Position numbers and translations under genes: made by a program
Notes under the pieces: model-generated
What the model saw: the letters and a program-made list of their open reading frames with translations, nothing else
The model's database searches: none
Told to the model about the DNA's origin: nothing
Source of the DNA: Eubacterium sp.
GTDB lineage: Bacteria > Bacillota > Clostridia > Oscillospirales > Acutalibacteraceae
DNA length: 64,000 nt
NCBI GenBank assembly: GCA_029258375.1
Contig: JARHZA010000001.1
Coordinates: 186,001-250,000 of the forward strand
Direction: 5' to 3'
Part shown: piece after piece, positions 1 to 64,000 of the stretch
Layout: every line of letters starts with the position of its first letter
Numbering within the stretch: position 1 is the stretch's first letter

Positions 1-833
1 ATGCTCCGGCTTTGGCAAATATAAATGTTGAAGTTATCGCAATGCCTAAGAAAAAAATTCTTGGCATTTTCGGTGGCCACGACGCTCAAGTTAAAGTATG
101 GTATGACGATGGCGTAAAAGAAAAGAAGCCACAGCCGAAGAAAGAAGCTCCAAAAAAGGAAGCTGTTAAAAAAGCAGAAAAGAAGCCTCAGCCTAAAAAA
201 GAGACTTTAAAAAATAATGATGCTCCAAAAGCAGAAGTAAAAGAGCAGAAAAAAGAAGAAGTTGTAGCAACTGAAAGCGATATTGATGTTAACGTTGCAA
301 TTTCTTATCTTAAAAACATTTTAAAGGGCCTTAAAGTTGAAGATGCTGAAGTAGTAGCAAACTTCAATAGTGGTATTCTTGAAATGGAAATTCAATGTGA
401 AGATTACGGCATCATCATTGGTCGCCGTGGTGAAACACTTGATTCTATTCAATACCTTACAAGCCTTGCATTAAAGAAAACTTGTGACAAGAGCGTTAGA
501 GTTAACCTTAATGTAGGTAACTACCGTGAAAAAAGAGCAGAAACTCTTAAAAATCTTGCACACAAAAATGCAAACTATGTTTTAAGAACTGGTAGAAGAT
601 TTACTTTTGAACCAATGAACCCATACGAAAGAAGAATTATTCACACAACTGTTCAAGAAATTGAAGGTGTTGAATCTCTTTCAATCGGTTATGGTCAAGA
701 TAGAAAAGTTGTTCTTCAACCAACTGGCGGAGTTAAACCTCGCCGTAAGAGTGCACCAGCTAAAAGCGTTGCACCTAAAGCAGACCGCAGCGATTTACCA
801 AAGTTCGGTAAGATTGAGGTTAATAAAGACTAA
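1..833 (+). CDS. khpB: RNA-binding protein KhpB/Jag (5' partial)
   Basis: RNA-binding protein of the Jag/EloR family, which in Firmicutes pairs with KhpA and affects cell elongation and division. The frame (codons from base 3) is open to the left edge, so the N-terminus is missing. Homology already begins upstream of the in-frame TTG at 12, so that TTG is not the start. Visible parts in order: the rest of the Jag-N domain with the loop KKKILGIFGG; a Lys/Ala/Pro-rich linker of about 55 residues; a KH domain with the loop IIIGRRGETLDSIQ; and an R3H domain around PYERRIIHTTVQ. The tail is basic and probably disordered. It is followed by a strong terminator, so it is transcriptionally separated from mnmE. 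The Firmicutes neighbours rnpA and yidC would lie to the left. Confidence 0.93.
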   Translation, partial: APALANINVEVIAMPKKKILGIFGGHDAQVKVWYDDGVKEKKPQPKKEAPKKEAVKKAEKKPQPKKETLKNNDAPKAEVKEQKKEEVVATESDIDVNVAISYLKNILKGLKVEDAEVVANFNSGILEMEIQCEDYGIIIGRRGETLDSIQYLTSLALKKTCDKSVRVNLNVGNYREKRAETLKNLAHKNANYVLRTGRRFTFEPMNPYERRIIHTTVQEIEGVESLSIGYGQDRKVVLQPTGGVKPRRKSAPAKSVAPKADRSDLPKFGKIEVNKD

Positions 834-846
834 TTACTAAAGAACA

Positions 847-878
847 ATGGTGGAATTCTCTAATTCCACCATTTTTTT
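847..878 (+). terminator. Intrinsic terminator after jag
   Basis: A perfect 11-bp stem (ATGGTGGAATT / AATTCCACCAT) with a CTCT loop is followed by seven T. It ends jag transcription 18 bp before the mnmE start. Confidence 0.9.
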
Positions 879-895
879 AAAGGGAGGAAAGCGTT

Positions 896-2263
896 ATGGC
901 AAAAACTATTGCAGCAATAGCAACAGGTAATTCAGCCGGTGGTATTGGTGTTATTCGCATTAGTGGCGACAACGCAGTTGAAATTGCAAATAAAGTTTTT
1001 GAACCAATGAACAAAAACTCTTCACTTCTTAATCTTGAAGGTTATAGGGCAAAGTTTGGTAACATTATTTATAATAATGAAAAAATAGATAACGCAGTTG
1101 CCCTTGTATTTCGTGCGCCTAAAAGTTATACTGGCGAAGACGTTGTTGAGCTATCTGTTCACGGCGGAATTTTTATTGTTGAAAAAACACTTGAAGCCGT
1201 TTTAAATGCTGGTGCAATTCCTGCAGATGCTGGCGAATTTACAAAGCGTGCATTTTTAAATGGTAAAATGGATTTAACACAGGCAGAAAGTGTTGCAGAC
1301 CTTATATCTGCAGAGGGTGAAGCTGCTGCAAAAGCATCTTTCAATGCACTTCAAGGTTCTTTGAGCAATAAAATATCTAATGTTTTAACAAGTTTAACAG
1401 ATTGTTCTGCTCTTATGGCTGCTTGGGTAGATTACCCAGATGAAGAAATTCCAGAACTTAAAGAAGAAAATCTTCGTGAAACACTTGTTAATGCAAAAGA
1501 TGTTCTTACTGATTTAATTGAAAATTACGAAAATGGTCAAACAATGATTCAAGGTGTTGATACTGCTATTGTTGGCAGACCTAACGCCGGCAAATCAACC
1601 CTTATGAATCTTCTTGTTGGAAGAGAAAAAAGTATCGTAACAAAAATTGCAGGTACTACAAGAGATATTGTTGAAGAAAGTGTTAGACTTGGTAATATTG
1701 TTCTTCATCTTAGTGACACTGCCGGAATAAGAGAATCTGATGATGTTGTTGAATCAATTGGTATTCAACGTGCATTTGATAAGATGGATTCTGCGTCACT
1801 TGTTGTTGCAGTTTTTGACAGTAGCAAAGAGTTAAACGATGACGATATTAAACTTATTGAAAAATGCAAAGGCAAAAAAGCTGTTGCAGTTATAAATAAA
1901 ACTGACCTTGATGAAGTTGCAAATACAGACCTTATTAAAAACGCATTTAAAGAAGTTGTTTATATCAGTGCTAAACATACCGATGACACAAAACCTCTTG
2001 AAGATGCAATTAAAAATGTTTTGGGTGTTAGTGGATTTGATGCCTCTGCACCAATACTTGCAAATAGAAGGCAAAAAAATTGTTGCAAAAATGCACTTGA
2101 TAATATCAATGAAGCTATTGGGGCACTTGATTTAGGCTTAACCTATGATGCTATAAATGTTATGGCAGATAGTGCAATTGATGAGTTATTATCACTTGTA
2201 GGTAAAAAAGCAACTGTTGAAGTAGTTAATAACATATTCAGTAAATTCTGTGTAGGAAAGTAA
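896..2263 (+). CDS. mnmE: tRNA modification GTPase MnmE
   Basis: Works with MnmG to add the carboxymethylaminomethyl (or related) group to wobble U34 of certain tRNAs, using a methylene-tetrahydrofolate carbon. The 455-residue length is normal for the family. The N-terminal TrmE domain is followed by a helical domain that holds an inserted G domain: P-loop GRPNAGKS near residue 226, DTAG near 273 and NKTD near 334. The protein ends in FCVGK, the conserved C-terminal CxGK whose Cys is needed for modification. ATG at 896 has GGGAGG eight bases upstream. mnmG follows after 5 bp and rsmG overlaps mnmG, so the three form one operon. Confidence 0.97.
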
Positions 2264-2268
2264 TAAGT

Positions 2269-4143
2269 ATGGAATATTTTTCAGATAATTATGATGTAAT
2301 AGTAATTGGTGCAGGTCACGCAGGTATTGAAGCTGCTCTTGCATCTGCAAGACTTGGTTGCAAAACTGCCGTTTTTACAATCAATGTTGACTGGATTGGC
2401 AATATGCCTTGCAACCCTTCAATTGGTGGCACTTCAAAAGGTCACCTTGTTAGAGAAATAGATGCACTTGGTGGCGAAATGGGTAAAGTTGCAGATAAAT
2501 ACACTCTTCAAAGTCGTATGCTCAACCTTGGTAAAGGCCCTGCCGTTCATTCTCTTCGTGCTCAAATTGATAGACGTGAATATTCTAAGGGAATGAAACA
2601 CGTTCTTGAACTTCAAGAAAATCTTGATATTCGTCAGGCAGAAATAATAGACCTTGTTAGAAACGAAGATGGTTTGTGGCAAGTTAAAACTAAACTTGAG
2701 GCTATCTTTACTGCAAAAGCTGTTATTCTTGCAACAGGTACTTTTCTTGGTGGACGTGTTTATATTGGTGATGTTTCTTATGAAAGTGGCCCAGACGGAA
2801 TGTTCCCTGCAACTGAACTTTCGAAAAGTCTTTATAAACTTAATATTCCACTTAGAAGATTTAAAACAGGTACTCCAAGCCGTGTAAATAGAAGAAGTAT
2901 TGATTTCTCTAAAATGGGAATTCAAGAGGGCGACGAACGCACAGTTCCATTTAGTTTTGAAACTGAAACTCCACCAGAGAATAAGGTTTGTTGCCACGTT
3001 ACATATACTAATGAAAAAACTAAAGAAATCATCCTTGCAAATATCCACCGTTCTCCTATGTACAGTGGAAAAATTGAAGGTGTTGGACCTCGTTATTGTC
3101 CAAGTTTTGAAGATAAAATTGTTCGCTTTGCAGATAAACAAAGACACCAATTATTTATCGAACCTTGTGGTCTCGATACAGAAGAAATGTATATTCAAGG
3201 TCTTTCTTCTTCACTTCCTGAAGATGTGCAACTTCAATTTATTCACACAATTCCAGGGCTTGAAAATGCTCTTGTTATGAGAACTGCTTATGCAATTGAA
3301 TACGATTGCGTTGACCCTACTGCACTAAAAGCTACTCTTGAGTTTAATGAAAATGAACTTAGTGGACTTTACGGTGCTGGTCAATTTAATGGTTCAAGTG
3401 GATATGAAGAGGCTGCCGCACAAGGTCTTGTTGCAGGTATTAACGCTGCCCTTAAAATTCAAGGTAAAGAACCTCTTGTTCTTGATAGAGGTGGCTCTTA
3501 CATTGGCACTCTTATTGATGACCTTGTTACAAAAGGTTGTTCAGACCCTTACCGTATGATGACAAGCAGAAGTGAATATAGACTTGTACTTCGTCAAGAT
3601 AATGCAGATGTGCGTCTTACCCCTACTGGTCACGAAATTGGCCTTATTAGTGACGAACGTTATAAGAAGTTTCTTCATAAGCAGGAACTTATTGCTGAAG
3701 AACTTGAAAGAATTAAAAATACTTCTATTTCTGCAACAGATGAATTGCAACACATATTGGAAGAACTTGGAACTGCACCTCTTAAAAAAGGTTGCAAAAT
3801 GATTGAACTTTTAAAAAGACCACAAGTTACTTATAAAGCTCTTACACCTGTTGATGTTAACAGACCTGAACTTCCTTATGAAGTTTTTGAACAGGTTGAA
3901 ATTTCTGTTAAGTATGAAGGCTATATTGTTCGTCAGGAACAACAAATCAAGGAAATGAGAAGAATTGAATGTAAAAAAATTCCAAAAGACCTTGATTATA
4001 GCACACTTAAAGGTTTAAGACTTGAGGCTGTAGAAAAGTTATCTAAAATCAAGCCTGAAAATCTTGGGCAAGCAAGCAGAATCAGTGGTGTTAACCCTGC
4101 TGACGTTGCTGCGCTTAATATCATTTTGGAGTCTATGAAATGA
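2269..4143 (+). CDS. mnmG: tRNA uridine-5-carboxymethylaminomethyl enzyme MnmG (GidA)
   Basis: FAD-dependent partner of MnmE in U34 tRNA modification. The Rossmann FAD motif [12 protein letters not shown] lies near residue 11. The GidA signatures [21 protein letters not shown] and, later, [21 protein letters not shown] are present, as is the C-terminal helical MnmE-binding region ending [12 protein letters not shown]. At 624 residues it is full length. It starts 5 bp after mnmE and its last four bases (ATGA) overlap the start of rsmG, indicating translational coupling. Confidence 0.97.
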
Positions 4144-4841
4144 ACAAAGAATTTTTAAATAATCAATTAAAAGAACTTGGTGTTAATGTTGATGAGGTTG
4201 TTATTGACCGTCTTTGCTTTCTTGAAGAAAATCTTCTTAATTGGAACAAAAATGTAAATTTAACTGCTATTACTGATTCAAACGAAATTGCAACTAAACA
4301 TTTTGCAGACAGTCTTTCTGTGTTGCCTTATGCCGAATTTGAAGAAGGTGCGTCTGTTATTGATGTTGGTTGTGGCGCTGGTTTTCCAAGTCTTCCCCTT
4401 TTGATTTCAAGGCCAGATCTTAAAGTTACTTTTCTTGATTCTATTGGAAAGAAACTTAATTTTATAGAAGATACTATAAACAAACTCGAACTTCAAGGCA
4501 CTATCATTCACGATAGAGCCGAAATAATTGGCAAAGATGAAGAATATCGTGAATCATTTGATTATGCAGTAACAAGAGCTGTTGCCCCTCTTAATGTTCT
4601 TGCTGAATATTGTTTGCCTCTTGTTAAAGTTGGTGGAATGTATATTTCTATGAAAGGTGCAGAAGATGAAGTTGAACTCGGAGAAAATGCAATAAACACT
4701 CTTGGTGGCAAAATTGAACGTGTTGTTTCATTTAAACTACCTAATGGAGATAAAAGAAATTTAATTATGATAAAAAAGATTTCGCAAACTCCGACAGGAT
4801 ACCCAAGAAAAGCAAAAAAAATAGACACTCGCCCACTCTAA
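4140..4841 (+). CDS. rsmG: 16S rRNA (guanine-N7) methyltransferase RsmG (GidB)
   Basis: S-adenosylmethionine-dependent methyltransferase for 16S rRNA G527 (E. coli numbering). SAM motif I is [15 protein letters not shown], followed by [14 protein letters not shown]. The C-terminus [13 protein letters not shown] is typical of GidB. At 233 residues it is standard length. The ATG overlaps the mnmG stop (ATGA) and a strong terminator follows, so this is the last gene of the mnmEG-rsmG operon. Loss of this protein gives low-level streptomycin resistance in other species. Confidence 0.96.
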
Positions 4842-4940: not shown

Positions 4941-5774
4941 ATGCCCGAAGAAATTATTAGAATAGCAACGGAAAAATTATTGCCCAACCCCTATCAACCA
5001 AGAAAACAATTTAAAAGCGAAGAACTTTTAAGTCTTGCTGATTCTATAAAGGAAAATGGCATTTTGCAACCACTGCTTACAAGGCGAATAAATAATAGTG
5101 ATTATTTTGAAATTATTGCTGGCGAACGACGTTTGCGTGCATCAATTCTGGCAAATCTTCAAACAGTCCCTTGCCTTGTTGTTGATTGTGATTATGAAGA
5201 AAGTGCCGTTTATTCTACACTTGAAAATATTCAACGTTCTGATTTAAGTTTTTTTGAAGAGGCTCAAGCAATTCATCATATGCAAACACACTTTGGATTA
5301 ACTCAAGAAGAGATTGCAAAAAGACTTGGTAAAAGTCAAAGTGCTCTTTCTAATAAATTACGTATTCTTAAACTTCCGGTTGATGTAAGATATTTCATTG
5401 AAAAAGAAGGATTAACCGAAAGGCACGCAAGAGCACTTTTAAAACTTGAAACTGAAAAGCAGATGTGGACAACTCTTAATGTTATTAAAGATAGAAAACT
5501 TAATGTTGAGCAAACAGAAGCATATATTGATTCTATTATCAATAAAAAAGTTAAACCACATAAAAACATTGTGAAAATATTTAAAGACGTTAGAATATTT
5601 GTAAACACAGTTAATAAAGCAATAAATACTATGAAAGAGGCAGGAATCCCTGCTGAATCTAATAAAACGGAAACTGATGATTATATCGAGTTTTTAGTCA
5701 GAATTCCGAAAACGGCACAAGGGCAACCAAAATTAAAAAAAGACAATAAAGAACTACAAAGTGCCGTATCTTAA
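4941..5774 (+). CDS. noc: Noc-type ParB paralogue (nucleoid occlusion)
   Basis: ParB/Noc family DNA-binding protein. The CTP-binding region carries NPYQPR and GERRLRA, and the helix-turn-helix is LTQEEIAKRLGKSQSALSN. At the four positions reported to separate Noc from ParB specificity, this protein has Q133, K139, K144 and R161, the Noc set; ParB downstream has R, S, K and G. ATG at 4941 is chosen because AAGGAG sits nine bases before it; the in-frame TTG at 4932 touches the Shine-Dalgarno. With this start the protein lacks the N-terminal amphipathic helix by which Bacillus Noc binds membrane. The position between rsmG and soj is the canonical noc place. The exact cellular role is inferred. 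Confidence 0.88.
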   Translation: MPEEIIRIATEKLLPNPYQPRKQFKSEELLSLADSIKENGILQPLLTRRINNSDYFEIIAGERRLRASILANLQTVPCLVVDCDYEESAVYSTLENIQRSDLSFFEEAQAIHHMQTHFGLTQEEIAKRLGKSQSALSNKLRILKLPVDVRYFIEKEGLTERHARALLKLETEKQMWTTLNVIKDRKLNVEQTEAYIDSIINKKVKPHKNIVKIFKDVRIFVNTVNKAINTMKEAGIPAESNKTETDDYIEFLVRIPKTAQGQPKLKKDNKELQSAVS

Positions 5775-5780
5775 TTTGCT

Positions 5781-5800
5781 TAAAACGGGTAACCGTTTTA
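5781..5800. repeat. Small hairpin just after noc
   Basis: TAAAACGG and CCGTTTTA form a perfect 8-bp dyad with a GTAA loop immediately after the noc stop. No T tract follows. It could protect the mRNA 3' end or aid the terminator-like hairpin 27 bp downstream. Confidence 0.5.
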
Positions 5801-5827
5801 ACATATTCTCCTCTTTTCATCACGTGG

Positions 5828-5857
5828 AATAGCCTGTCGTTAATTCGACAGGCTATT
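5828..5857 (+). terminator. Hairpin after noc, terminator-like
   Basis: A perfect 12-bp stem (AATAGCCTGTCG / CGACAGGCTATT) with a TTAATT loop. It is strong and in the right place to end noc transcription, but the sequence after it is CTGCATTTAT rather than a T run, so termination strength is uncertain. Confidence 0.6.
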
Positions 5858-6766
5858 CTGCATTTATAAACGTGTTTATATTATAAATTAAATTCATTTA
5901 ACAAAACTCTTATCATAGCATTTACTTATTATTAAATGCGTTATTAAATAACCCTTTTCACACAAAATATAGTTATTTTAACTGATTTTCTGTACTTTTT
6001 TACTTTTATATTGATATTTTATTGAAATTATCTGATTTATTATAAATCTTATTTTTAAAATACATTATTCTTTTTACTTTAATAATTTAATAGTAATAAT
6101 ATAAAGATTATTTTAAGCGACTGCGATTACCAAATATATTTAATAATACTCTTTAATTTTAATTCTGCATTGTTCTATTTTTATATTAAATTATTTATTG
6201 TAATATAATTTTATTTTAATAAATAACTATATATATATTCAGGTATTAGCTAACTATTACTTATTGAATCTGCTTATATAATTTTATCTCTTAAATAATA
6301 TTTTCTAATATATAATTATAAATAAATATTTTAATTATTTGAATGACAATTTAGAGTTTAATATTTGAGTAATTACAATATATATTAGTATATATTTTTA
6401 TAATTCTAAAAATATATTTGTATGCTATTTAATAATCATTGTTGTAGTTAATATTTTAATTTGGTTTTATTAAATATCATCATTTTAATATAGATATTTA
6501 TATTTATAGTTTTAATTGTGTTTTAACTTATTTCTATTGTATTTTAATATATAAATTATAAAATCATATAACTATTATTTATTATTAAATTATATATTCT
6601 ATACTATTATTTTTTTAATATATCTATTTGCTTATATTATCAAAACTATATTATATTTTTAGTGCTGGTATTATATTGTTATTTATTACTTAAATTTTAT
6701 ATATATTTAATATAATCTATGCCCAATGAAATTTCGCAATAGATTATATTATTACCTAATTATATT

Positions 6767-6879
6767 ATTGAACTATTAAATTGAAGATTGAATTCTATTA
6801 TAATAGAATTCAATATAAATACAATTTTAATTAATTATATATATTTTTATATTATCATCTTATATTGCAATAGTTCAAT
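6767..6879. repeat. 11-bp inverted arms bracketing the palindrome
   Basis: ATTGAACTATT at 6767-6777 is repeated as its exact reverse complement AATAGTTCAAT at 6869-6879. The arms lie on either side of the 28-bp palindrome, roughly 10 and 55 bp away. With this base composition an 11-bp match can arise by chance, so the pairing is suggestive only. Confidence 0.45.
6787..6814. repeat. 28-bp perfect palindrome without spacer
   Basis: ATTGAATTCTATTA is followed directly by its reverse complement TAATAGAATTCAAT, with the centre between 6800 and 6801. It includes two EcoRI-type GAATTC hexamers. Perfect loopless palindromes of this length are rare even in AT-rich DNA. It may be a protein-binding site or a cruciform-forming element. 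Confidence 0.8.
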
Positions 6880-7019
6880 TTGATGTTTTCGTTGGCTCAA
6901 CTTCTGATTAGTTATTAGCTATTTTCTTTATTTTAAAAATCGATAATATTTATTTAAAGTTAATAACTATAACCTTTAGTTACATTGTAATCAAGTATAT
7001 ATATTATTTTTTAACCTTG

Positions 7020-7035
7020 TGTTTCACGTGAAACA
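7020..7035. promoter_or_regulatory. parS site 1
   Basis: TGTTTCACGTGAAACA is a perfect match to the 16-bp ParB/Spo0J centromere site. Confidence 0.96.
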
Positions 7036-7122
7036 TAATAACAATATATTGTATTTTCAGTTAAACAAGTTTATTTGAAATATATTTTCAATGAAATCAA
7101 TATAATTAAATTATTGTCTTAA

Positions 7123-7171
7123 GTTTTCAACATTATAAACTTTGTTTAGATGAAATAAAATTGTTGAAAAC
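7123..7171. repeat. 10-bp inverted repeat left of parS cluster
   Basis: GTTTTCAACA (7123-7132) and TGTTGAAAAC (7162-7171) are exact reverse complements 29 bp apart, within the segment between parS 1 and parS 2. The neighbouring TGTGGAAAG is a poor DnaA-box match. Confidence 0.45.
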
Positions 7172-7227
7172 TATGTGGAAAGTGTTAAAAAGTAGTGTAA
7201 ATAGGCTATATTATTGTTAAAAACTAT

Positions 7228-7243
7228 TGTTTCACGTGAAACA
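7228..7243. promoter_or_regulatory. parS site 2
   Basis: A second perfect 16-bp parS, TGTTTCACGTGAAACA, 192 bp after the end of site 1. Confidence 0.96.
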
Positions 7244-7298
7244 CGATATATAGTAGAAACAAAATTAAACTTCCACAATAGCCTAAAAATTTCTTATT

Positions 7299-7314
7299 TG
7301 TTTCACGTGAAACT
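7299..7314. promoter_or_regulatory. parS site 3
   Basis: TGTTTCACGTGAAACT matches parS at 15 of 16 positions. It ends 12 bp before the -35 box of soj, so ParB loading here could also affect transcription of its own operon. Confidence 0.93.
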
Positions 7315-7326
7315 TGCCTATTTATA

Positions 7327-7355
7327 TTGAATGTGTAGTGCAGATATTGTATAAT
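7327..7355 (+). promoter_or_regulatory. Promoter of soj-parB-serS
   Basis: TTGAAT (7327-7332) and TATAAT (7350-7355) are separated by 17 bp, a near-consensus housekeeping promoter. Transcription would begin near 7362, just before the Shine-Dalgarno GGAGG at 7365. Confidence 0.85.
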
Positions 7356-7376
7356 ATCTATCACGGAGGTGCGACT

Positions 7377-8138
7377 ATGGGAAAAACCGTATCTATATTT
7401 AATCAAAAAGGTGGAGTTGGCAAAACAACAACTTGTGTAAATCTTGCCGCTGCACTTGGCGCAAAAGGCAAAAAAACACTTCTTGTTGACGTAGACCCTC
7501 AGGGAAATTCAACAAGTGGCGTTGGAATTGATAAAGCAGAAATCGAGTATTCAACTTATGATATTTTAATCAATAAAGTTCCTGCTCGTGGTATTATGAT
7601 TGAAACTGACTTTAAAAATCTTTCATTACTTCCTGCTAATATGAATTTGGCTGGCGCTGAACTTGAACTTGCAGAAACGGAAGATCGTTTTTATGCTCTT
7701 AAAAAAGCAATAGCACCACTTGTTGTTGATTTTGACTACATTATTATTGATTGCCCCCCAAGTTTGGGATTGCTTAGTCTTAATGCTCTTACTGCATCTG
7801 ATACTGTTATTGTTCCATTGCAGTGCGAATATTATGCACTTGAAGGTTTAAGTCAACTTTTAAGCACAGTTAGAACTGTAAAGCAACATTATAATGAACA
7901 TCTTGAACTTGAAGGCGTAATTTACACTATGTACGATAGCCGTCTTAGGTTAACACAACAAGTTATCGACGAAGTAGATAAATATTTTCCAAACAAATCA
8001 TATAAAACTATGATTCCTCGAAGTGTTAAGCTTGCTGAATCACCAAGTTTTGGAAAACCAATTATTTATTATGATAAGTATTCTAAGCCAAGTTTTGCAT
8101 ACAAAAAACTTGCAGATGAATTTCTACGCAAACAATAA
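7377..8138 (+). CDS. soj: Chromosome partitioning ATPase ParA/Soj
   Basis: Deviant Walker ATPase that, with ParB, segregates origins and in Bacillus modulates DnaA. The Walker A motif is KGGVGKTTT near residue 12, the A' region VDVDPQGNSTSG and the Walker B region YIIIDCPPSLG. At 253 residues it is a short chromosomal ParA without an N-terminal regulatory domain. ATG at 7377 has GGAGG seven bases upstream; longer in-frame starts lie inside the promoter and are excluded. parB follows after 23 bp. Confidence 0.96.
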   Translation: MGKTVSIFNQKGGVGKTTTCVNLAAALGAKGKKTLLVDVDPQGNSTSGVGIDKAEIEYSTYDILINKVPARGIMIETDFKNLSLLPANMNLAGAELELAETEDRFYALKKAIAPLVVDFDYIIIDCPPSLGLLSLNALTASDTVIVPLQCEYYALEGLSQLLSTVRTVKQHYNEHLELEGVIYTMYDSRLRLTQQVIDEVDKYFPNKSYKTMIPRSVKLAESPSFGKPIIYYDKYSKPSFAYKKLADEFLRKQ

Positions 8139-59519: not shown

Positions 59520-61522
59520 TATAATACACCTCTGTAATAAAGACCTCTTGTGTAGTCAAAAGGTGGTTTTGATTCGTTTTTATATAAATCTATAATTTTT
59601 TCAACTTCATTCACATTTTCATTTGTAAAATAAAATTGAATAAAATCAGTTTTTATTTCGTGCATTCTGTCTGCCATATAAATAGGCACAGAATTAAGAA
59701 TTTCAACACAAGGGTAAGGAGAACAAACAACAGGGAACTCAATGCCTTTTCTGTCTGTTAACTTGCCGTTTTTTTGACATTTGGCACAGCCAATGTTGTT
59801 TTTAACAGGGCAGTTTCTTGTTAACATAAGTGGAACTCTTCCGTAACCAATAATTCCGGTATCGTCTGTGTTAATAGCATTTGCACTATCAATAGTAAGT
59901 TCAAAAGATAAAATTGGAGAATTTATTTCTTGAGCAGTTTTGCTATTAAACACATTTAAACCAAAATCGCCATAAACTTCAAATCCCAAATCTTTTGCAA
60001 GTTTATATGAACCAATATTGCCACAAAGTGCCTTTTTTACACCAATTTTCTTTAATTTTTTAAGTTTTTCTGTAATTTCGTGTTCTTTGCCAAAAAGCCC
60101 ACGTGGAATTTCAACACCTGCTCTGTTGTCTATAAAATCTTCAGGGGTAGACCAAATAGGAATAAAAATTCGCTCAAATGGGTGTTTATCTGGAATTTGA
60201 GAAACATCGCTAAACCTTGCAGTAAAATAAGGCTTGCCACCTTTGATTCGCTTTTTAATCTCTTTAAAAGGTTCGGCAACAACTGGGCTTGTTTCAGTTT
60301 TAGATAGTTCTTCAACTGCTTGCCTGCGAAGTGCGTTAATCTTAGAAGCAGGCACAATCAAGCCGTCATCAAGTGTTATGTTAATGTTGTTTGCAAAAAA
60401 TTGTGTTCCACCAAATTTTTTAAGTCTGTCAGTTAAACTTTCAACTGTCATAGGCTTGTTGATTGCAACTTCTGGTGCATCGCCAGTAACAGTAACTGTT
60501 TTTTGAAGTGCAGTTGCAGTAAGTTTAACAGGTTTGTCTTTTTTACAAACAAAATCTATATCTATTGGTAAAAGTGGATTTTCGTTATCATAAAGATGAG
60601 AAAGATTTTTAAGAACATCTTTGGCAGCAACTACATCTTCTTTTTGTCTTGTGCCAAACATTGTTTTGTTCATTTCATTTTTAAAATAACCTTGTGTAAA
60701 ACCACTTCTGCTGAATACGCTTTTTAGTTCAATTTCATCTTTAATTGAATAATCGCCAGCAATTGCTTTTTTTACTGCAGAAACTGCTGCTGCAACATAT
60801 TCAGGGCGTTTCATTCTGCCTTCAATTTTAAGGCTTAAAACACCAACATTTTCAATATCTTTAATTTGCCTTATAAGACTTAAATCTTTTAAACTAAGGT
60901 CAAAACTTTTGCTGTTGTTTGCAGAAAAAGAAAGTCTGCAAGGCTGAGCACAAAGTCCTCTATTGCCACTTCTTTGACCAATCATTGCAGAAAGTGCGCA
61001 TTGACCAGAAACACTCATACAAAGAGCACCGTGAATAAACATTTCAAGTTCAAGGTCTGTGCTTTTTCTTATTTCAAGAATTTCATCTGCCGTCATTTCA
61101 CGTGGTAGCACCATTCTTGAAAAACCGAGTTCTTTTAATGCCTCTGCACCTTTTGGAGTCATAACGCTTGTTTGCGTAGATGCGTGAATTTTTGCAGTTG
61201 GAAAATATTCTTTAATCATTTTAGCAACGCCAATATCTTGCACGATAAAAGCATCAACACCAACTGAAAGTGCATTTTTTACAAGATTATAAGCGTCTAA
61301 AAATTCATTATCTGCACAAAGAGTGTTTATTGTTAAATAAACTTTAACACCGTGGCTATGGCAGTATTCTACTGCACTTTTTAGTTCTTCATCATTAAAA
61401 TTGCCGGCATTACGACGGGCGTTTAACGATTTACCACCAAGGTAAACCGCATTTGCACCGCATCTTACACCGGCAACAAGTGACTCCTGCGATCCAGCAG
61501 GAGCTAAAATTTCAAAATTCAT
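59519..61522 (-). CDS. U32-family protein (RlhA/TrhP-like)
   Basis: 667 residues. Peptidase U32 name is historical: characterised relatives hydroxylate 23S rRNA (RlhA) or tRNA (TrhP) via an iron-sulfur cluster. The N-terminal domain begins ILAPAGSQESLVAGVRCGANAVYLG; the cluster-binding Cys are in GALCMSVSGQC and RGLCAQPC. A long C-terminal part has a second Cys group (RNCPVKNNIGCAKC). The zapA-U32-maf order suggests a housekeeping role. Confidence 0.88.
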   Translation of the reverse strand: MNFEILAPAGSQESLVAGVRCGANAVYLGGKSLNARRNAGNFNDEELKSAVEYCHSHGVKVYLTINTLCADNEFLDAYNLVKNALSVGVDAFIVQDIGVAKMIKEYFPTAKIHASTQTSVMTPKGAEALKELGFSRMVLPREMTADEILEIRKSTDLELEMFIHGALCMSVSGQCALSAMIGQRSGNRGLCAQPCRLSFSANNSKSFDLSLKDLSLIRQIKDIENVGVLSLKIEGRMKRPEYVAAAVSAVKKAIAGDYSIKDEIELKSVFSRSGFTQGYFKNEMNKTMFGTRQKEDVVAAKDVLKNLSHLYDNENPLLPIDIDFVCKKDKPVKLTATALQKTVTVTGDAPEVAINKPMTVESLTDRLKKFGGTQFFANNINITLDDGLIVPASKINALRRQAVEELSKTETSPVVAEPFKEIKKRIKGGKPYFTARFSDVSQIPDKHPFERIFIPIWSTPEDFIDNRAGVEIPRGLFGKEHEITEKLKKLKKIGVKKALCGNIGSYKLAKDLGFEVYGDFGLNVFNSKTAQEINSPILSFELTIDSANAINTDDTGIIGYGRVPLMLTRNCPVKNNIGCAKCQKNGKLTDRKGIEFPVVCSPYPCVEILNSVPIYMADRMHEIKTDFIQFYFTNENVNEVEKIIDLYKNESKPPFDYTRGLYYRGVL

Positions 61523-61568
61523 ATTTAGTATCTTTCTTTTCTATTATTAAATAGCAAAGAGAAAAGAT

Positions 61569-61928
61569 TTATTGTTTTTCGCTTAATCTATCTCTTAGGT
61601 TGTTAACTTCTCTGTTAAGTCTTTCAACTTCTCTTCTTGCAACATCAACTTCCATTCTTGCTCTTGCACTATCTTCAAGGTAATCTTTAATTTGAGCACG
61701 AAGATTATCAGCCGCAGCAGTTGCTTTTCTGCAGGCATCTGTTTGGTCAAGGGCAACAAGAATAGCACATTGTATTGAAGAAAGACTTGGGCTGCTACTT
61801 GCAATGTCTTTCATTTCTGAATCAATAAATTCGCCAAGGCTTTCAACGTATTCTGGATCATCTTCTGTGCGAATTGAATATGTTGCACCGCATATTTTTA
61901 TTTGAACTTTATTCTTTTCCATTTTCAT
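61569..61928 (-). CDS. zapA: Cell division protein ZapA-like
   Basis: 119 residues. The N-terminal globular part (VQIKICGATYSIRTEDDPEYVESLGEFI) and the long coiled coil (about 60-117, RMEVDVARREVERLNREVNN) are typical of ZapA, which bundles FtsZ. GAGGC precedes ATG 61928; a second ATG two codons later is possible. First gene of the operon, with a consensus promoter and a perfect dyad at its start site. Confidence 0.9.
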   Translation of the reverse strand: MKMEKNKVQIKICGATYSIRTEDDPEYVESLGEFIDSEMKDIASSSPSLSSIQCAILVALDQTDACRKATAAADNLRAQIKDYLEDSARARMEVDVARREVERLNREVNNLRDRLSEKQ

Positions 61929-61960
61929 AATGCCTCAACTTTATATCTTTAAAATTATAT

Positions 61961-61979
61961 ATTACTAAAACTTAGTAAT
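61961..61979 (-). promoter_or_regulatory. 19-bp dyad at zapA transcription start
   Basis: ATTACTAA-AAC-TTAGTAAT is a perfect 8-bp dyad directly abutting the zapA -10 on its downstream side, where a repressor would block transcription or an RNA hairpin would cap the transcript. Confidence 0.6.
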
Positions 61980-62008
61980 AGTATAACAACTAATTAAAAC
62001 AATGTCAA
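61980..62008 (-). promoter_or_regulatory. Promoter of zapA-U32-maf
   Basis: Minus strand TTGACA (62008-62003), 17 bp, TATACT (61985-61980) with a TGT extension: near-consensus. Confidence 0.85.
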
Positions 62009-62110
62009 TTATTAAAACATAAGGCAATATATTATCAAAAAGTTGATTTTTTGTTGTTTTTTACTACCCTATGTCAGTTGTTATAAAGTAAAAAATAAAA
62101 AATTAAATTG

Positions 62111-62139
62111 TTGACAAAAAGCGTATTCTTACTTATACT
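62111..62139 (+). promoter_or_regulatory. Promoter of riboswitch-antiporter unit
   Basis: TTGACA (62111-62116), 17 bp, TATACT (62134-62139): near-consensus. Transcription would start at about 62146, the first base of the aptamer. Confidence 0.88.
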
Positions 62140-62146
62140 CTTTTGT

Positions 62147-62206
62147 GGGAATGAGGTTCTCCCTTAGTTTTTACTAAAACTGCTTATTTTAGCTGATGAC
62201 TTCTGC
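62147..62206 (+). ncRNA. Fluoride riboswitch (crcB motif) aptamer
   Basis: The leader matches the conserved blocks of the crcB/fluoride aptamer in order: GGGAATGAGGTTCTCCC (62147-62163), then AAACTGC (62177-62183) and GCTGATGACTTCT (62192-62204). The Thermotoga aptamer reads GGGCGATGAGG, AACTGC and GCTGATGGCCTCT at the same places. A 5-bp hairpin TTAGT / ACTAA is inserted between the first two blocks. The 3' block is also the 5' arm of the terminator, the usual switch design in which fluoride stops termination. Confidence 0.82.
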
Positions 62207-62236
62207 TTTTAACGCAGAAATTGTCAGCTTTTTTTG
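62192..62236 (+). terminator. Riboswitch expression-platform terminator
   Basis: GCTGA ... TTCTGC pairs with GCAGAA ... TCAGC in a long imperfect stem followed by eight T. It overlaps the aptamer's conserved GCTGATG block, so aptamer and terminator compete. Confidence 0.85.
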
Positions 62237-62304
62237 TTGTTATTAGAAAATTTTGTTAATTATACACACAAAAAAACATAAAAAATTTTTTAAGGAGAAA
62301 TTTT

Positions 62305-63510
62305 ATGCTGCTTAGTATCGCTTTAATAATGTTGCTTGGAATGTTTATGGGGCAAATTTGTAAAAAAATACATCTTCCAAGTTTAATGGGAATGCTTATA
62401 ACAGGTATTGTTCTTGGCCCTTATGTGCTTAATTTAATAGATTCGTCTATTTTAAATATTTCTGCAGAATTAAGAAAAATAGCACTTATAATTATTCTTA
62501 CAAGGGCAGGCTTATCGTTAAAAATTGATGATTTAAAAAAAGTTGGCAGACCTGCAATTTTAATGTGTTTTGTTCCTGCTTGTTTTGAAATTTTAGGAAT
62601 GATTTTGTTAGCACCAAAACTTCTTGGAGTGTCGGTTTTAGATGCTGCAATTATGGGCGCAGTTGTTGGTGCAGTTTCTCCTGCAGTTATTGTTCCCAAA
62701 ATGATAAAAATTATGGAAGAAGGGTATGGCACAAATAAAAGTATTCCTCAACTTATACTTGCAGGTGCATCTGTTGATGATGTTTTTGTAATTGTAATGT
62801 TTACTGCATTTACTGGTATGGCAAGTGGCGAGGGCATTTCTGCTAAAACTTTTATAGATATTCCAATTTCAATTGTTTTGGGTGTTTTAGTTGGTCTTGT
62901 TGTTGGTGTTCTTTTAACTTTTCTTTTTAAAAAAATTCATATTCGTGACACTGCTAAAGTTATTATAATTCTTTGTGTTTCATTTATACTTGTTGCAGTT
63001 GCAGACAGTGTTTCAAACTTTGTTCACTTTGAACCTTTGATTTCTATTATGGTTATTGGAATAACACTTCAAAGTAAAAGAAAAGTTGTTGCAAATAGAC
63101 TTTCTTCAAAATTCAACAAACTTTGGGTTGGTGCAGAAGTTATGCTCTTTGTTCTTGTTGGGGCAACAGTAGATATTAAGTATGCCGTTTCTGCTGGGTT
63201 AATGGTTGTTGTTCTCATTTTTGGAGTTCTTTTGTTTAGAATGATTGGTGTTTTTGTTTGCCTTTTAAAAACAAAACTTACAGTTAAAGAAAGATTGTTT
63301 TGTATGATTGCATATTCGCCAAAAGCAACAGTTCAGGCAGCAATTGGTGGAGTTCCACTTGCAATGGGGCTTGGTTGTGGCAATATTGTTTTAACGGTTG
63401 CAGTTGTTGCAATTCTTATTACTGCCCCTCTTGGTGCGTTTTTAATTGATTTAACTTATAAAAAATTCCTTCAAAAGAAAATAAGCGAAAATAAAGAAAT
63501 TCAACAATAA
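62305..63510 (+). CDS. Cation/proton antiporter (CPA family)
   Basis: 401 residues with about 12 membrane segments, Na+/H+ exchanger superfamily (PF00999 type). Landmarks are HLPSLMGMLITGIVLGPYVL, GAVVGAVSPAVIVPKM and ILAGASVDDVFVIVMF; the Asp pair in GASVDD is in the ion-binding region. No C-terminal TrkA-N domain. Control by a fluoride riboswitch suggests it aids fluoride resistance, perhaps by handling protons or fluoride itself. AAGGAG precedes the ATG. Confidence 0.88.
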   Translation: MLLSIALIMLLGMFMGQICKKIHLPSLMGMLITGIVLGPYVLNLIDSSILNISAELRKIALIIILTRAGLSLKIDDLKKVGRPAILMCFVPACFEILGMILLAPKLLGVSVLDAAIMGAVVGAVSPAVIVPKMIKIMEEGYGTNKSIPQLILAGASVDDVFVIVMFTAFTGMASGEGISAKTFIDIPISIVLGVLVGLVVGVLLTFLFKKIHIRDTAKVIIILCVSFILVAVADSVSNFVHFEPLISIMVIGITLQSKRKVVANRLSSKFNKLWVGAEVMLFVLVGATVDIKYAVSAGLMVVVLIFGVLLFRMIGVFVCLLKTKLTVKERLFCMIAYSPKATVQAAIGGVPLAMGLGCGNIVLTVAVVAILITAPLGAFLIDLTYKKFLQKKISENKEIQQ

Positions 63511-63564
63511 TAAGAATAAAATGTGTGGTTTTCCGCAAGTCTTGTTTAAAAATGTAGAAAAGTA

Positions 63565-63594
63565 AAAGGAGCGTATCAAGCGATACACTCCTTT
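63565..63594. terminator. Bidirectional terminator
   Basis: AAAGGAG-C-GTATC pairs with GATAC-A-CTCCTTT with one mismatch around an AAGC loop, T-rich on both outer sides, between convergent genes. Confidence 0.88.
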
Positions 63595-63633
63595 TTTTAT
63601 TTATATTGAAAAATGTTAAATACTAAATAAATC

Positions 63634-64000
63634 TTAATATTTTTTAAGTTGATCCTCGTCAAATGTTTCAAGGAATTCATCGTAACTACCTTTGTGGTCA
63701 ACGATTTTGTCGCCAGAAATCTCAATAATTCTGTCTGCAACAGTTTGAATAAACTGGTGGTCGTGAGAAGTAAAGAGAACAGTTTCTGGGTAACGGATAA
63801 GACCGTTGTTAAGTGCAGTGATAGATTCAAGGTCAAGGTGGTTAGTAGGTTCATCAAGAATAAGAACGTTTGCACCACTAAGCATCATTTTGCAAAGCAT
63901 ACATCTAACACGTTCACCACCAGATAAAACGTTAGACATTTTAAGAGCATCATCGCCACTAAATAACATTCTGCCAAGCCAACTTCTAATATCTGTTTCA
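63634..64000 (-). CDS. ABC-F family ATPase, YbiT-like (5' partial)
   Basis: Only the last ~122 residues are in the window; the frame continues past the right edge. It holds the second ATPase domain: LGRMLFSGDDALKMSNVLSGG, Walker B VLILDEPTNHLD, and H-loop FTSHDHQF. The LGRMLFS...LSGGE wording and short C-terminal tail are closest to YbiT among ABC-F proteins, which act on stalled ribosomes. Without the N-terminal half and linker, subfamily and any antibiotic link stay open. Confidence 0.88.
   Translation of the reverse strand, partial: ETDIRSWLGRMLFSGDDALKMSNVLSGGERVRCMLCKMMLSGANVLILDEPTNHLDLESITALNNGLIRYPETVLFTSHDHQFIQTVADRIIEISGDKIVDHKGSYDEFLETFDEDQLKKY

Follow-up and report, generated by a model that had tools for sequence, protein, structure and literature searches.

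The window analysed here is a stretch of 64,000 nucleotides from Eubacterium sp. (GenBank assembly GCA_029258375.1, contig JARHZA010000001.1, positions 186,001 to 250,000 of the forward strand), in which a fluoride riboswitch of the crcB-motif family (RF01734) precedes a gene for a CPA2-type cation/proton antiporter related to NHA2/SLC9B. Together they probably form a fluoride-ON switch controlling an antiporter that resets the proton and cation balance disturbed by hydrogen fluoride (HF) and does not itself carry fluoride (F-), whichever direction it works in. Computed here are the aptamer, its overlap with a terminator, the identity of the gene, the conserved linkage of riboswitch and antiporter, the intact cation site of the protein and a genome in which no crcB was found. 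Fluoride riboswitches have repeatedly exposed the functions of misannotated genes (CrcB, CLC-F), and in the present case they precede the majority of the sampled members of one antiporter subfamily, which is seldom found with CrcB.

Architecture of the riboswitch and its gene

The locus comprises the following features ("cells" are those of an alignment of 61 antiporter-linked aptamers):

62111..62139, + strand: sigma-70-type promoter, TTGACA/17 nt/TATACT, 11 of 12 consensus positions
62138..62212, + strand: fluoride riboswitch aptamer RF01734; cmscan 42 bits, E 2.9e-8; 79.4 bits with our own model R1
62147..62163, + strand: P1 hairpin GGGA/TCCC; 95.9% of cells paired across the 61 sequences
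62153..62157, + strand: 5' strand of the pseudoknot, partner 62199-62203; 96.7% of cells paired, both-side changes at four of five pairs
62164..62177, + strand: inserted hairpin between P1 and P2; in 56 of 61 sequences, both-side changes at four of five pairs, 79.1% of cells paired
62182..62193, + strand: P2 (62182-62184 with 62191-62193); 98.9% of cells paired
62191..62236, + strand: intrinsic terminator, hairpin 62191-62229 plus U tract; -18.9 kcal/mol, z -5.3
62292..62297, + strand: Shine-Dalgarno sequence AAGGAG, read directly
62305..63510, + strand: CPA2-type (SLC9B/NHA2-like) cation/proton antiporter, 401 amino acids; PF00999 148 bits; 7b4l 1.8e-40; TM 0.89
63564..63598, + strand: intrinsic terminator 3' of the antiporter gene; -15.9 kcal/mol, z -5.5

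The match to RF01734 covers the whole model (positions 1-64) and exceeds its gathering score of 34 bits (cmscan against Rfam), which bears out the crcB-motif aptamer that an initial annotation had read from the letters of the window. At gathering scores, the window contains no other Rfam match, and no second fluoride riboswitch was found in the 1.716-Mb genome. The R1 score is not an independent figure, as the window sequence is itself part of that model. P1, P2 and the pseudoknot from the loop to the 3' strand that characterize RF01734 are all present, as is, by anatomy alone, a switchable expression platform. Folded alone without the pseudoknot, the aptamer stretch is no more stable than its shuffled versions (46 of 200 as good). 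The near-consensus promoter of the initial annotation (-35 box at 62111-62116, -10 box at 62134-62139) could be read as described. Nonetheless, promoter-like sites in this AT-rich region are not rarer than expected by chance (three seen versus 3.2 in shuffles), and for this reason the promoter was dropped as evidence. As it ends at 62139, the transcript should start near the first base of P1 (62147).

Covariation was scored on the 61-aptamer alignment, with the structure taken from the window. Standard pairs occupy 92.0% of 1011 cells versus 83.1% in shuffles, and 104 cells versus 31 are changed on both sides, while structures slid along the alignment reach at most 58% paired and at most 38 cells changed on both sides. 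The number of further pair types (25 versus 23.3 in shuffles) is no better than chance (109 of 500). The pseudoknot is changed on both sides at four of its five pairs; P1 and P2 are paired but contribute little covariation because their pairs are mostly invariant. The hairpin inserted between them was considered an uncommon variation in the initial annotation, a view that does not hold given its frequency and its covarying pairs in antiporter-linked aptamers. Its outermost pair is poorly kept, and, judged by length, it would be too long for 17 of 28 aptamers that precede more distant antiporters.

The terminator hairpin is more stable than all of its shuffled versions (0 of 200 as good); a simple terminator scan of the region returned nothing and thus missed it. 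As the initial annotation had noted for the last conserved block, aptamer and terminator overlap: both P2 (62191-62193) and the pseudoknot (62199-62203) have their 3' strands in the 5' arm of the hairpin. Because of this shared use, the two structures should be mutually exclusive, as in a fluoride-ON switch. Without fluoride, the terminator would form and transcription would stop; with fluoride, the aptamer (P1, P2 and pseudoknot) would hold the terminator strands and the antiporter would be made. A passage of Weinberg et al. 2010 (PMC2864571) describes the same overlap of terminator and motif. A terminator using the aptamer 3' end also occurs in 57 of 60 related loci, by a loose test that had no shuffled control and admits some weak hairpins (e.g., at locus L063). 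The antiporter gene has its own Shine-Dalgarno sequence, in agreement with the initial annotation, and since a terminator also lies behind it, it is apparently monocistronic.

The identity of the protein follows from several comparisons. PF00999 is its sole Pfam domain (148.4 bits versus a gathering score of 26.2) and covers residues 11-379 of 401; no second PF00999 protein was found in the genome. NCBIfam gave no model above its cut-off; the KefB model TIGR00932 scores 50.7 versus a cut-off of 238.3, and Pfam reveals no KTN domain. By sequence, the nearest solved structures are those of NHA2/SLC9B2 (7b4l), with which the alignment shares two adjacent aspartates (DD) and the motif PKATVQAAIG. 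All 50 aligned members, with identities as low as 37%, carry D158, D159, R312 and K340; the aspartates and the later lysine K340 presumably form the cation site. The predicted model (pLDDT 87.5, pTM 0.85) is closest in fold to NHA2 (7b4l), followed by NhaP and NapA. Both the DD-plus-lysine signature and the closest fold thus place the protein in the NHA2/SLC9B-like branch of CPA2, and it would be predicted to exchange Na+ or another monovalent cation for H+. Nothing suggesting an anion site was seen in its sequence. With a GC content of 0.327 versus 0.34 for the window, composition gives no sign of recent acquisition, and a phage origin was likewise discarded, as a megablast comparison of positions 60000-64000 with the phage collection gave no match.

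Conservation of the riboswitch-antiporter pairing

The linkage was followed through several sets of genomes, which partly share members (loci L141 and L073 are probably the same locus). Among 98 genomes of relatives, 11 contain a riboswitch match at E<=0.001 (eight over the cut-off; 12 places in total). The antiporter subfamily occurs in six of the 98 (54-100% identity), each time with the riboswitch directly upstream. The other six places lie before crcB (three), before CLC genes (two) or before nothing obvious (one). A sub-threshold fluoride riboswitch of 24.9 bits in genome G083 (locus L010, positions 1501-1605) has no obvious same-strand gene downstream.

A scan of a contig collection yielded at least 568 relatives of the antiporter, the best 80 of which were kept as loci. 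Of these 80, 60 have a same-strand riboswitch upstream at Rfam's own cut-off, and 65 have one with R1. Since 60 of the 61 aptamers used to train R1 come from the very loci then searched, the Rfam count is the independent one. For R1, matches with E values up to 0.1 were accepted, and the five loci that it adds (L098, L100, L103, L108 and L111) fall below the Rfam cut-off. In 59 of 60 loci, 24-250 nt separate the aptamer from the point where the tblastn match begins, which is not always the start codon. The exception is L061 from Anaerotignum neopropionicum (positions 620-4076), with three open reading frames (ORFs) in between: two metabolic-looking ORFs and a universal-stress-like protein, with functions assigned by eye. 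Two further arrangements stand out. In L060, fluoride riboswitches at 2610-2668 and 4534-4594 flank the antiporter gene on both sides, and in L219 from Peptoclostridium acidaminophilum (1820-3643) a CBS-domain gene lies between riboswitch and antiporter.

A sample of 393 genomes from across the class contains the subfamily at 70 places in 66 genomes. Its lower limit was set at >200 bits, where scores drop from 212 to about 80 (no other hit exceeds 81 bits), and at most four candidates per genome were scored, as for the CLC-F-like calls below. A riboswitch is present at 53 of the 70 places (the window, L017, 23 of 28 and 28 of 40). For the more distant antiporters, the count is 28 out of 40, with the same 28 at Rfam's cut-off, and it includes five loci (L195, L206, L211, L216 and L217) with partial genes or little upstream sequence. 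As a control, distant PF00999 paralogues from the same order were compared with subfamily loci: none of 24 versus 28 of 33 (the 23 of 28 above plus five of five more) have a riboswitch (Fisher p 1.9e-11). All six plasmid-borne homologues tested, with 35-56% identity and from Clostridia, Fusobacteriota and Cyanobacteria, are preceded by one as well. These six represent one record per organism among 11 long-match records, the rest being further records of Picosynechococcus, Synechococcus and Cetobacterium. Because the subfamily loci and the plasmid homologues are linked while the distant paralogues are not, the linkage is, judged by sequence, a property of the antiporter subfamily and not of PF00999 at large. 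In total, 865 records of the plasmid collection match the antiporter (504 from Klebsiella, 232 from Escherichia), but only 11 cover at least 80% of it. Among the matches listed, nine from enterobacterial plasmids span residues 207-394 only, at 57-59% identity, and look truncated.

Fluoride defences and the role of the antiporter

The genome check called for by the initial annotation revealed no match to crcB (PF02537) in the window's genome, which is 98.48% complete. No CLC of the CLC-F type was found either: its only CLC carries the motif GSGIP and scores like a chloride-type CLC, with 100 bits to the CLC-F-like alignment. The line for CLC-F-like was drawn at 185 bits, in the gap between 185 and 127, using an alignment of four sequences, two of which are not riboswitch-linked. 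Across the 393-genome sample, crcB occurs in two of 66 genomes with the antiporter versus 83 of 327 without (Fisher p 1.1e-5). Within families, the difference persists (two of 66 versus 33 of 112; Mantel-Haenszel odds ratio 0.10, p 0.007, permutation p 0.002). This test, picked after the overall result, comprises 178 genomes from antiporter-bearing families with any query-protein match; crcB was counted by genome, uncorrected for phylogeny. Similar figures come from the other sets. crcB is present in one of 50 genomes of contig-collection loci (the first 50 of the 80, a partly overlapping set without matched control), and in 22 of the 98 relatives' genomes, none of them among the six with the antiporter. 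In the window's own genus (60 genomes of the relatives' set, many incomplete), only two genomes have the antiporter, 18 have a crcB match (17 over the cut-off) and none has both; the turnover of fluoride defences in this genus seems to be rapid.

From these data we infer fluoride binding and induction in this organism, as well as the ion carried and its direction. The antiporter would protect by restoring the proton and cation balance that is upset when HF enters the cell. We slightly prefer a Kef-like direction, in which the cation would leave and H+ would enter, lowering the transmembrane pH gradient. With a pKa of 3.2, F- would accumulate about 32-fold at pH 7.5 inside and 6.0 outside, and about two-fold at 6.3 and 6.0. 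As trapping scales with the pH gradient, a smaller gradient reduces F- accumulation, and therefore an exporter may become dispensable, which acid repair explains less well. There is precedent for such protective acidification: according to a section of PMC10224563, Kef links the exit of K+ to the entry of H+ and, by acidifying the cell, protects it against electrophiles, and a passage of PMC11139923 mentions tolerance of a lower homeostatic pH in fluoride-acclimated yeast.

Several observations weigh against the role proposed here. Sequence does not reveal which ion is carried or in which direction, and the case is a computational one throughout. With the model used, 15 of the 80 relatives and 17 of the 70 class-wide places have no riboswitch. 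Unlike crcB, CLC-F-like genes are not avoided (19 of 66 genomes with the antiporter versus 77 of 327 without), and in the relatives' set two of the six antiporter genomes (G072 and G093) have a CLC placed as CLC-F-like; the others have a chloride-type CLC (the window's genome and G028) or no CLC (G065 and G088). In addition, crcB and CLC-F are both absent from 187 of 327 genomes without the antiporter versus 45 of 66 with it (p 0.10). Since genomes with neither exporter are this common in the class, the missing exporters of the window's genome are weak evidence by themselves; more weight attaches to the avoidance of crcB.

The alternative closest to our proposal concerns direction and falls within it. 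The antiporter may repair an acid load, importing Na+ and expelling H+ (or otherwise raising the internal pH) after HF influx. The initial annotation had suggested such a correction of the proton load, and it is also the published view of riboswitch-linked antiporters, as worded in a part of PMC11139923; controlled H+ entry, the opposite direction, fits the data equally well. We regard acid-load repair as a serious contender, albeit not the favoured one. It leaves the avoidance of crcB unexplained. Furthermore, an electrogenic DD-type antiporter under an ordinary proton-motive force would presumably drive H+ inwards.

A different proposal is that an antiporter fold has turned into a fluoride exporter, working by F-/H+ symport outwards or by F-/cation exchange, as a third class beside CrcB and CLC-F. 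The riboswitch linkage of most of the sampled subfamily and the avoidance of crcB described above would fit this, and the CLC family offers a precedent, where a chloride-type annotation hid fluoride transporters (a passage of PMC7266159). Nonetheless, we deem it unlikely: the cation-site residues are invariant throughout the aligned members, fold and motifs are closest to a Na+/H+ exchanger, and genes of the CLC-F type are not avoided. The simple argument that a genome without exporter must use its antiporter as one is weakened by the base rate of antiporter-free genomes that lack both. The contribution to fluoride resistance put forward in the initial annotation is supported by the conserved riboswitch linkage and stands as a likely role, whereas export finds no positive evidence in a sequence with an intact cation site. 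A fortuitous neighbourhood, in which a degenerate or unrelated aptamer happens to lie before a housekeeping antiporter, is hardly credible: promoter-like sites are indeed no rarer than chance in the region, but the E value of the aptamer (2.9e-8) and the recurrence of this pairing across scores of genomes led us to reject a chance match.

Resetting of the proton and cation balance thus remains our preferred role for the antiporter. If it suffices alone, cells could withstand fluoride through control of their proton and cation gradients, with no need to pump F- out, and a genome without crcB or CLC-F would not necessarily be undefended. More speculatively, and rather doubtful for now, the NHA2-like subfamily might be a dedicated fluoride-resistance transporter that replaces CrcB in many Clostridia and is also under riboswitches in Bacteroidota, Fusobacteriota and Cyanobacteria, acting either through induced H+ entry that collapses the pH gradient (leaving no HF trapping), which would be a form of resistance that needs no exporter, or by carrying fluoride.

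Elsewhere in the window, positions 5701-7400 are very AT-rich, with short AT repeats; the six lowest 1200-base windows (starts 5701-6201) have a GC content of 0.149-0.175 versus 0.34.

Comparison with known systems

The pairing of fluoride riboswitch and antiporter is already known in kind. The initial annotation held antiporters to be rarer partners, which is contradicted by a passage of a review (PMC11139923) that names Na+/H+ antiporters as the next-most common partner class after exporters, and by the linkage in 60 of 80 relatives. Among the genes downstream of the motif, a part of Weinberg et al. (PMC2864571) lists some for K+ and Cl- transport. In the passages retrieved from the open-access literature, a scope that excludes the original 2012 papers, we recognised no paper that names this NHA2-like subfamily or its avoidance of crcB, or that tests a riboswitch-linked antiporter in fluoride resistance; a search including NHA2 gave no paper with NHA2 beside fluoride terms.

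The aptamer resembles RF01734 in its full-length match, its pseudoknot and its terminator overlap, the latter as in the passage of PMC2864571, and differs by the hairpin inserted between P1 and P2, which it has in common with most antiporter-linked copies. The riboswitch-linked Na+/H+ antiporters of Baker 2012, compared through their description in a part of the review (PMC11139923), likewise lie behind a fluoride riboswitch. Clostridioides difficile CD0656-CD0657 also combines a fluoride riboswitch with an antiporter, of the NhaP type; there, however, the antiporter gene follows a CLC gene in what appears to be an operon of two genes, as an excerpt of PMC11477304 indicates, while the antiporter of the window stands alone. 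NHA2/SLC9B2 (7b4l, 7p1i) is the best match in both sequence and fold, with the DD pair and PKATVQAAIG shared, but it is eukaryotic and only about 30% identical to the antiporter of the window. Finally, KefB and KefC belong to the same CPA2 superfamily, and their protective H+ entry (as outlined in a section of PMC10224563) is the model for the direction that we prefer. Unlike them, the antiporter of the window leaves no room for a regulatory KTN domain and is apparently regulated at the level of transcription and not by glutathione.
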